A stretch of 39,223 nt of DNA, taken from Nitrospirota bacterium. Lineage in GTDB: Bacteria > Nitrospirota > Nitrospiria > JACQBW01. Made by a program: the position numbers and the translations under genes. Shown one piece after another: positions 30,366 through 34,416 of the stretch; position 1 is the stretch's first letter, and every line of letters begins with the position of its first letter. The notes under the pieces are model-generated. The model was not told where the DNA came from. It saw only the letters and a program-made list of their open reading frames with translations, and ran no database searches. The stretch is from positions 1 to 39,223 of the forward strand of contig JACQBW010000003.1 in NCBI GenBank assembly GCA_016194305.1. Reading direction: 5' to 3'.

Positions 30366-30460
30366 CAAAAAAGTCGGTCAAGCCCTTTAACGTTGTTGTA
30401 ATGGAAGATTATTTTAAGTAGAATAAACTGATTTCAGTTTCATAGATCCAAGTGTTCTCC
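30366..30460 (+). promoter_or_regulatory. Duplicated promoter region, copy A (upstream of IS remnant and wzx)
   Basis: This ~95 bp stretch is about 75% identical to 33477-33575. It contains -35 TTGTAA (30396-30401), a 17 nt spacer and -10 TAGAAT (30419-30424), with the same spacing in the other copy. Just downstream of the -10 is a palindrome, AAACTGA-TT-TCAGTTT, near the expected transcription start, a possible operator. Confidence 0.6.
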
Positions 30461-30485
30461 CCCCTGAAATTAGCGCCACTTGAAA

Positions 30486-30698
30486 ATGGAGTCTCCCGGC
30501 GAGTCAACAACTCTGAAACAATCCGAGTCCGGAGCAAAAATTAGGCAATTCTGACGGCAGGATGGTATGTCAGATACCACGTTTTTTAATTTCAAAGAAA
30601 AATTCGGTGGTTTAGAGGTGTCACAAGTGGTGAGATCAAAGAGTCCGGAAGATAGAAACCGCCGCCTCAAACAGACTATCGCTGACCAGAAGCGGTAA
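30486..30698 (+). pseudogene. Remnant of an IS3-family transposase orfA
   Basis: Read in the plus frame ending at 30698, the text gives ...LKQSESGAKIRQF(stop)RQDG, then MSDTTFFNFKEKFGGLEVS, then QVVRSKSPEDRNRRLKQTIA and DQKR(stop). This follows the IS3 OrfA pattern (helix-turn-helix 'LCRKHGxSDATFYNWKxKFGGxEVS', then 'xRLKxLEDENRRLKxLVAD'). The in-frame TGA sits where IS3 OrfA has the conserved Cys codon. The region upstream of the helix-turn-helix is degenerate and the orfB integrase part is absent. It lies between promoter copy A and wzx. Confidence 0.75.
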
Positions 30699-32268: not shown

Positions 32269-33294
32269 ATGACCGGAATAAAGCTTTCTATATGTATTCC
32301 GACCTATAATTTCGGAAAATTCCTTACACCCTGCCTGGATTCCGTTTTAAAACAAATTTCGAATGAAGTTGAAATTATCATTGTTGACGGAGGATCAACT
32401 GACAATACTTCTGAAGTTATTCAAGGGTTTCAAAAGTCCTTTTCTAGAATAGATTACATCCGATTGGAAAAGAAAGGAGGTATAGATAAGGATCTGGCGT
32501 TGACTGTTGAAAAAGCTCACGGGGAATATTGTTGGTTGTTGTCAAGTGACGATCTCATTAAACCGGGTGCGATTGGCAGAATTCTTGATGAAACTCAAAG
32601 TGGATATGGAGTCTATTTAGGTAACCGAACAGTATGTGATATAAACCTTAATCCCATAAGAGAGCAACAGTGGCTTTCCGGAAGGATTGAAGATCAGGTG
32701 TTCAATTTTTCAGATAATTCTGAATTAATTGATTATTTAAACAAATCACAATCGTTAGGAGCGCTATTTAGTTATATGAGCACGATCATTGTGAATCGAA
32801 AAAAATGGATGAACGTTGATTATAATGAGATCTTTACAGGGAGTCATTATGCCCATGTCTTCAGAATCTTTACATTGTTGAGAAGTGGCGGTTTATTAAA
32901 ATACATAAAGGACCCTCTCATAAAATGTAGAACCGGAAATGACAGTTTTTTAGATCATGGAATAGGAAATCGATTTTTAATTGACTTAAAAGGATATCAG
33001 CTTCTGGCAGATGAATTATTTGGAAAGACACCCGTTGTAAGAAACTATTTCATGTCTGTGATGCGACGTGAACATGTTTGGTATGGATTAATCTGTTTAA
33101 GAAGCGAAATATCGAACATAGTTCTGTGGGAAGATTTAAAGCGGAGATTCATGATTTTTGGTTATTCTGAAAAGCAACTTTTATTAGTTGGAATTTTAGG
33201 ATTATTTAAGCCAATTATTTCATTAATCAATAAATTTACCAATTTGAAAAGAAAGTTAGGTCGAGTGGCTAATCAGAATGGGGGAGGAAGGTAG
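32269..33294 (+). CDS. GT2-family (GT-A fold) glycosyltransferase
   Basis: A 341-residue protein. The N-terminal GT-A domain has SICIPTYNFGKFLTPCLDS, EVEIIIVDGGSTDNTSEV (nucleotide-sugar site) and the DxD-like SSDDLI near residue 95. The C-terminal ~120 residues are helical and basic, likely for membrane association. It adds a sugar to the growing O-unit; donor and acceptor cannot be told. It sits with the flippase on an AT-rich segment bracketed by the duplicated promoter region. The start ATG at 32269 has GAAAGGGG about 20 bp upstream, somewhat distant. It closely resembles abequosyltransferase-like GT2 members in layout. Confidence 0.88.
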   Translation: MTGIKLSICIPTYNFGKFLTPCLDSVLKQISNEVEIIIVDGGSTDNTSEVIQGFQKSFSRIDYIRLEKKGGIDKDLALTVEKAHGEYCWLLSSDDLIKPGAIGRILDETQSGYGVYLGNRTVCDINLNPIREQQWLSGRIEDQVFNFSDNSELIDYLNKSQSLGALFSYMSTIIVNRKKWMNVDYNEIFTGSHYAHVFRIFTLLRSGGLLKYIKDPLIKCRTGNDSFLDHGIGNRFLIDLKGYQLLADELFGKTPVVRNYFMSVMRREHVWYGLICLRSEISNIVLWEDLKRRFMIFGYSEKQLLLVGILGLFKPIISLINKFTNLKRKLGRVANQNGGGR

Positions 33295-33330
33295 ATGTCT
33301 AACTAAAGGACACTTGTTTTCGGGCAAATG

Positions 33331-33467
33331 GCCGGGATGGCTAATATCCAATCTTTAGATATTCTGCCGGCTCTCAGTAATGGCATGAGAGGGAACGGGG
33401 GCCCGATCCAATGGGAATCCGGAGGGTGTCCGGGTACAGATGATTTGTCCAATACTGCCTGGACCTT
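33331..33467. ncRNA. GC-shifted hairpin-rich island, candidate structured RNA or element remnant
   Basis: Between the AT-rich glycosyltransferase and promoter copy B lies ~140 bp of clearly higher GC with consecutive stems: GCCGG/CCGGC enclosing AATATC/GATATT (33331-33371), CTCTCA/TGAGAG (33371-33391), CCGGA/TCCGG (about 33419-33433) and GTCCA/TGGAC (about 33449-33467). A 61-codon open frame crosses it (33328-33513) but shows no recognisable domain, ribosome site or signal. I cannot match it to a known riboswitch class; strand unknown. Confidence 0.35.
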
Positions 33468-33476
33468 TTCGGCATA

Positions 33477-33575
33477 TCCTAAAACGGGGTTAAGTCATTT
33501 AACCGAGTTGTAATAGAAGTCTTTTTTAAGTAAAATAAACCGACTTCAGCTTCATCAACCCAAGAATCCATAATA
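33477..33575 (+). promoter_or_regulatory. Duplicated promoter region, copy B (upstream of the dienelactone-hydrolase-like gene)
   Basis: Diverged copy of 30366-30460. It has -35 TTGTAA (33508-33513), a 17 nt spacer and -10 TAAAAT (33531-33536), at the same positions as in copy A, and ...ACTTCAGCTTCAT downstream where copy A has ...ATTTCAGTTTCAT. A clear AAAAGGAG ribosome site follows for the gene at 33592. Confidence 0.65.
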
Positions 33576-33591
33576 TAAAAAGGAGATGACG

Positions 33592-34416
33592 ATGTCATTT
33601 AAAATAAAGCTTGTTCTCAGTTCCTTGTTCCTATTTCTTTTTTTATACCAATTCAATGGATATGGGGAGACGATGACAATGCCGGATGAAATGAAAGGTC
33701 AACACTTCCTGAAAGTCGATAGCAGTGGCGCGTTAAACGGAATGGAAATTTCAGACAAAATTGACGGGAAACCGCTTCACGGTTATTTATCCAAACCGGA
33801 TGGCAAAGGACCTTTTCCGGCGATTATCATGATTCATGAATGGTGGGGATTGAATAAGCATATCAAAGAAACCGCCGATAAATTATCCAAGAACGGGTTT
33901 GTTGTTTTTGCTGTTGACCTTTACAAAGGGAAAGTAGCCACCAACCCGGATGAAGCCAATAAATTTATGGGTGAGGTCAATAAGGAGGAATCGATCGATG
34001 CGTTAGCCGGGGCCTATAGTTGGCTAAAGAAATATCCGGCCTCGAAAGATTCAAAGATCGGGACAATTGGCTGGTGTTTCGGCGGAGGATATTCACTTCA
34101 GGCAGGTTTAAATCTTCCTAAAGTGGATGCGGTGGTGATTTATTACGGACTTCTTGAGTCAGATCCCAAAGTCCTATCGAAATTAAAGGGACCCGTTCTA
34201 GGCATTTTCGCCAACCAGGATGGGTGGATCAACACAAAAATGGTGAATGATTTTGAGACAGGGTTAAAAGAGGCCAAAGTGGCAAATAGTATTAACCGTT
34301 ATGATGCGGATCATGCTTTTGCAAACCCAAGTAACCCAAAATACAATGCGACTGCCGAGGCAGATGCCTGGGGGAAGACAGTAGAATTTTTTAGCAAAAA
34401 TCTCAAGAGTAAATAG
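33592..34416 (+). CDS. Secreted dienelactone hydrolase-family alpha/beta hydrolase
   Basis: A 274-residue protein. An N-terminal signal peptide (KIKLVLSSLFLFLFLYQFNG) leads into an alpha/beta-hydrolase with IIMIHEWWGLNKHIKETADK, the nucleophile elbow GWCFGGGYS (Cys, as in dienelactone hydrolase), FANQDGW (Asp) and DADHAFANP (His), a complete Cys-Asp-His triad. It acts on an ester or lactone in the periplasm; the substrate is unknown. I chose the ATG at 33592 because AAAAGGAG is 6-7 nt upstream, while the ATG at 33586 directly abuts that site. Its promoter is copy B. It is flanked by polysaccharide genes but may not belong to that pathway. Confidence 0.88.
   Translation: MSFKIKLVLSSLFLFLFLYQFNGYGETMTMPDEMKGQHFLKVDSSGALNGMEISDKIDGKPLHGYLSKPDGKGPFPAIIMIHEWWGLNKHIKETADKLSKNGFVVFAVDLYKGKVATNPDEANKFMGEVNKEESIDALAGAYSWLKKYPASKDSKIGTIGWCFGGGYSLQAGLNLPKVDAVVIYYGLLESDPKVLSKLKGPVLGIFANQDGWINTKMVNDFETGLKEAKVANSINRYDADHAFANPSNPKYNATAEADAWGKTVEFFSKNLKSK

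Follow-up and report, generated by a model that had tools for sequence, protein, structure and literature searches.

Organization of the Locus

The window, that is, the whole stretch of 39,223 nucleotides of Nitrospirota DNA analysed here, contains dnaE and a dienelactone hydrolase family gene. They are separated by ∼3 kb, which holds, in order, an IS3-like remnant, a polysaccharide flippase gene, a glycosyltransferase gene and the block of sequence under study. The features of the region, in window coordinates, are:

30376–30452, + strand: left copy of a 77-nt imperfect direct repeat, with a hydrolase-facing promoter-like site, TTGTAA-17-TAGAAT, at 30396–30424
30453–30698, + strand: IS3-like left end and stop-broken orfA remnant (HTH_Tnp_1 match below cut-off; a copy in the own genome on contig C6)
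30710–32248, + strand: polysaccharide flippase gene (Polysacc_synt, PF01943, E = 3e-17; GC 0.386)
32269–33294, + strand: glycosyltransferase family 2 gene (PF00535, E = 5e-29; GC 0.35)
33295–33487, no strand assigned: the block, orphan sequence from the last cassette gene to the right repeat (GC 0.497, four short stem-loops)
33328–33513, + strand: open frame of 61 codons that spans the block and has its last codons in the promoter repeat; unlikely to be a gene
33488–33564, + strand: right copy of the 77-nt repeat, with a hydrolase-facing promoter-like site, TTGTAA-17-TAAAAT, at 33508–33536
33586–34416, + strand: dienelactone hydrolase family gene (PF01738, E = 1.3e-51; 67% identical counterpart in the family relative G001)

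An Insert Flanked by a Promoter-like Repeat

In G001, a contig begins in dnaE (− strand), and a single short intergenic region leads to the adjoining hydrolase gene (+ strand), with a length of about 55–100 nt depending on which hydrolase start is correct. After the hydrolase gene, G001 keeps counterparts of the next three genes of the window in the same order. The first of these window genes matches the Pfam family GDP_Man_Dehyd/Epimerase and is dTDP-glucose dehydratase-like by our reading, and we read the other two as rfbA and rfbC. This empty arrangement was seen in G001, the one relative inspected for it. The genome G002, from the same family, gave no hydrolase match, and hydrolase-like matches also occur in G004, G006 and G008.

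The two copies of the 77-nt repeat bracket the whole insert and are identical at 60 of 77 positions (E = 2e-12). Both resemble the G001 intergenic region beyond chance (67 against at most 33, and 48 against at most 38, in 500 shuffles each); the block itself gives no alignment to that region above chance (18 against a shuffle mean of 19). The promoter-like sites in these sequences are consensus matches only (4, 3 and 3 found against shuffle means of 1.7, 1.0 and 0.6), and the hydrolase-facing ones are supported because their hexamers line up in all three sequences, the two repeat copies and G001. A dnaE-facing promoter-like site at 30381–30353 on the − strand overlaps the left end of the left copy. 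Sites facing dnaE and sites facing the hydrolase gene accompany both the left copy and the G001 intergenic region, and no dnaE-facing site was found in the right copy. From these alignments, the repeat appears to consist of copies of the promoter-like region between dnaE and the hydrolase gene. The hydrolase gene is presumably transcribed from the right copy, which lies downstream of the block, so that the block is probably not needed for its expression. Transcription of the flippase and glycosyltransferase genes may now start from the left copy.

The remnant that follows the left copy matches HTH_Tnp_1 with E = 2.5e-4, but its 21.6 bits fall short of the curated threshold of 24.1. The remnant presumably belongs to the IS3 family. 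Its terminal sequence is common to another copy in the own genome (C6:74117–74170), to which 30453–30698 is 81% identical over 54 nt, with 68% identity over 182 nt, and a transposase-like HTH_21 frame adjoins the C6 copy. Left ends similar to 30453–30698 are found in the own genome (G000) at C6:74117–74170, C6:67767–67808 and C7:150216–150244. A terminator-like hairpin with a T run lies at 30677–30697, just before the flippase start (one found, 0.5 expected).

A paralogue of the cassette glycosyltransferase, 65% identical to it, lies 9 kb downstream on the same contig, at C3:42156–43154 of the own genome (L052:3157–4179). No other relative of the cassette glycosyltransferase appeared in 269 class genomes at E ≤ 1e-20, and a search of genome contigs added one distant locus. 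The paralogue is flanked by a glycosyltransferase-like frame (our reading) on one side and a C-methyltransferase gene on the other, and an O-antigen ligase-type gene is close by. One of the two paralogues sits in the insert and the other in a larger polysaccharide cluster.

Composition and Hairpins of the Block

The initial annotation described the block as an island of much higher GC between AT-rich stretches. The step is real, as the core (33331–33467) has a GC of 0.533 against 0.35 in the preceding glycosyltransferase gene and 0.316 in 33488–33585 after the block, while the whole 193-bp gap (33295–33487) has 0.497. It is weaker than claimed, since the GC of the core is equalled or exceeded by 9.7% of the 137-bp stretches in the window, and the contrast is therefore due mainly to the AT-rich neighbours. 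For comparison, GC is 0.424 in the hydrolase gene, 0.461 in dnaE and 0.449 (sd 0.067) on average over the window.

The consecutive stems, of which at least four had been reported, show a similar mixed picture. Four non-overlapping perfect hairpins are present in the block (33343–33363, 33371–33391, 33419–33433 and 33447–33464; stem of at least 5, loop of 3–12), a number that is rare for a single stretch. At least four hairpins occur in 0.2% of 1000 mononucleotide shuffles of the block, in 0.64% of 7970 overlapping 137-bp genomic stretches, and in 0.22% of the 1381 stretches with similar GC. This rarity depends on the cut-offs, as the share of stretches that reach the block's count is 0.36% with loops to 9, 2.2% with loops to 20 and 4.6% with stems of 6, and rises to 43% with stems of 4 and loops of at most 8. 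Eight other places in the window also hold four or five hairpins (at about 7401, 10061, 15151, 29601, 32141, 34691, 35411 and 37021), most of them inside long open frames.

DNA-Level Relatives

Comparison with related genomes, suggested in the initial annotation, found no convincing relative of the block in the genomes searched. In its own genome, the block DNA is found in a single place, itself, and the only matches on contig C3 are of 14–28 nt. None of 57 other relatives gave a match at E ≤ 0.001. Within the class, 10 of 268 other genomes matched at E ≤ 0.05, in pieces of 18–44 nt with a best E of 0.003 and at most three first-look candidates scored per genome, and within the phylum 4 of 394 others matched at E ≤ 0.01, in pieces of 20–32 nt with at most two candidates scored per genome. 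The relative, class and phylum genome sets overlap. A search in distant mode returned nothing at E ≤ 1. The matches in relatives, class and phylum are all short or weak, and none is a convincing relative of the block.

Coding Potential

The initial annotation does not mention a + strand frame at 33328–33513, which starts with an ATG and runs through 61 codons before its stop. Its length is that expected by chance, with its 68-codon stop-to-stop span reached by 34% of 2000 shuffles. Its reading frame has the best codon usage among the six of the block. The score of the 61-codon stretch itself, −0.018, comes close to but does not reach the 5th percentile for real genes (0.0003), and it exceeds the 99th percentiles for shifted frames (−0.083) and for shuffles (−0.062). 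The codon usage is nevertheless ambiguous, because opposite-strand frames of real genes, with a 95th percentile of 0.0003, also reach this value. The end of the frame lies within the promoter repeat, where its stop overlaps the −35-like hexamer, and a single-sequence structure model of the product is poor (pLDDT 49).

No protein family could be assigned. Pfam gave no match to the open frames of the block on either strand, NCBIfam and PHROGs gave none among the block frames tried, and no PDB sequence matched the 61-codon frame. The view that the block holds no recognisable protein is upheld for the frames scanned, and the family match by which one frame would have been exposed as a gene fragment was not obtained in Pfam, NCBIfam, PHROGs or PDB. 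In a protein search, the 61-codon frame finds only itself in its own genome, 20 of 57 other relatives at E ≤ 1 (best 0.001), and 4 of 394 other phylum genomes at E ≤ 0.01 (best 9e-4). We inspected the open frames around four of these outside matches, namely the one in G048 discussed below and three more, and compared others from the 57 relatives by alignment. In genome and viral contigs no match was confirmed, plasmids gave none, and phages gave five records at E of 4 or worse. A genuine small-protein gene of 61 codons is favoured by its codon score, which approaches the range of real genes and exceeds that of shifted frames and of shuffles. Given the equal scores of opposite-strand frames, the chance-level length, the stop inside the promoter repeat, the poor model and the lack of any family, PDB or convincing homologous match, we nevertheless consider it unlikely.

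Is the Block a Decayed Gene Fragment?

More specifically, the debris could have decayed from the 3′ part of a cassette gene, such as one for a NeuB-like nonulosonic acid synthase. The best match outside the own genome of a covariance model built from the block lies at the end of a NeuB-family gene (G048:C4), and as such a gene would suit a polysaccharide cassette, a NeuB origin was tested. The same place is the best outside match of the 61-codon frame among the 57 relatives, although the two matches are not independent. In a stop-broken + frame of the block, HERERGPDP resembles HEREWRADP of the G048 gene with a pairwise P of 0.006, in the very gene on which the frame was selected. A second member of the NeuB subfamily shows no signal (P = 0.29). 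The conserved C-terminal motif of the subfamily was not found in the block, which matches 4 of the 11 residues invariant among three NeuB members, counted by eye. The block's NeuB profile score of 1.0 falls between the 95th and 99th percentiles of shuffled frames (0.4 and 2.2), taken from the 2137 of 3000 shuffled frames that gave a score and before correction for frames and selection.

The covariance-model match itself ranks first among 295 other genomes with an E of 1e-3 per genome, a level at which about 0.3 such matches are expected by chance. The next matches reach almost the same score (22.0 and 19.0 bits, compared with 22.8) and lie in other genes, endonuclease III-like and MltG-like by our sequence reading. 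NeuB records number 95 in plasmids and 3 in phages, and viral contigs gave none by protein and one by motif. With the C-terminal piece by itself as query, plasmids gave 11 records, of which a single one was convincing. Of seven plasmid NeuB records taken up, one was scored against the block frame and four others were set beside it for comparison. Taken together, these sequence comparisons do not bear out a NeuB origin of the block, and a decayed 3′ fragment of this kind is improbable.

It is still less probable that the block derives by decay from the start of the C-methyltransferase gene downstream of the paralogous glycosyltransferase, as the ATG-anchored global alignment of the first ∼46 nt exceeds 99% of shuffles (P = 0.0085) but falls to P = 0.037 once the ATG is left out, with the gene start ranking 23rd of 1069 ATG-anchored stretches, and the sequence after the paralogue gave no match to the block beyond chance.

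Is the Block a Structured RNA?

A structured RNA upstream of the hydrolase gene, the first explanation offered in the initial annotation, could be a leader or a small RNA and would account for the four consecutive stem-loops. The folding energy of the block itself (33335–33470) is ordinary, with z-scores of −0.59 on the + strand and −1.55 on the − strand, and with 49 and 14 of 200 shuffles, respectively, folding as well. Extended to 211 nt (33310–33520), the folds reach −1.77 and −1.61, equalled by 9 and 11 of 200 shuffles. Of 335 stretches with the same GC, both strands considered, 7.6% fold as stably as the + strand of the block or more so, and for its − strand the share is 28%.

Rfam gave no match in the window at the gathering score and none in the block at E = 10, where the only hit was to a snoRNA model (E = 3) outside the block, and a tRNA/tmRNA scan found no tRNA in the block. 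The covariance model, built from the block's own stem chain and searched in 295 other genomes, matched 16 of them at E ≤ 1 (best 1e-3), none a convincing homologue, and it was not found in seven further loci. No terminator-like site occurs in 33100–33800. The promoter-like site of the hydrolase gene lies downstream of the block, which is therefore not a leader of that promoter. Together with the equal hairpin counts at eight other places in the window, these results speak against a structured RNA, which we regard as quite improbable.

It is also very unlikely that the junction DNA between the cassette and the hydrolase promoter has given rise to an orphan product confined to this species, whether a structured RNA or a small protein. 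Were a transcript or peptide to come from the block, it would represent a new element arising from junction sequence.

Origin of the Block

The block is probably non-functional, orphan junction debris, left at the right end of a ∼3-kb cassette that came in by transfer or rearrangement. This reading of the block as debris rests on position and on exclusion, and it is the most likely one given the flanking repeat, the insert-free G001 and the lack of RNA, gene or element signals. The insert, its absence from G001, the repeat and the left-edge transposase-like remnant are all observed, as is the finding of no known families and no convincing relatives for the block. Against it, four hairpins are an unusual number for a single stretch, the codon score of the 61-codon frame leaves room for a small or foreign gene, and the empty arrangement is known from a single relative, G001.

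The insert may have come by transfer or rearrangement that duplicated or re-imported the hydrolase promoter, in which case decayed donor or rearranged DNA would fill the space from the last cassette gene to the promoter. Insertion could have proceeded through transfer with recombination in the promoter, or through duplication followed by IS insertion and loss. The earlier suggestion that the block is debris on the cassette's right side agrees with its position between the last gene and the right repeat, in an insert that G001 lacks. That it is debris of a mobile element as such is not borne out, since the transposase remnant sits at the opposite, left edge and no further copy of the block occurs in its genome.

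As junction debris, the block is ordinary and of little importance alone. It illustrates that the junction of an inserted cassette can by itself be enough to produce a GC step with hairpins, and it defines the borders of the insert, through the flanking promoter repeat and the transposase-like remnant.

Comparison with Known Systems

The left edge resembles IS3-family insertion sequences in that 30453–30698 matches an own-genome copy and also, at a score below the cut-off, HTH_Tnp_1. In contrast, the block resembles the stretch holding the C6 copy no better than chance, and no right end was found here.

Inserted polysaccharide gene cassettes with insertion-sequence remnants at an edge are a general kind of arrangement. 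The region studied here differs from such cassettes in its flanking repeat, which is a 77-nt promoter region at 78% identity rather than a fresh target-site duplication, and in the orphan scrap at its right edge. It is like them in its lower-GC flippase and glycosyltransferase genes, in the transposase-like remnant at one edge, and in its absence from a family relative.
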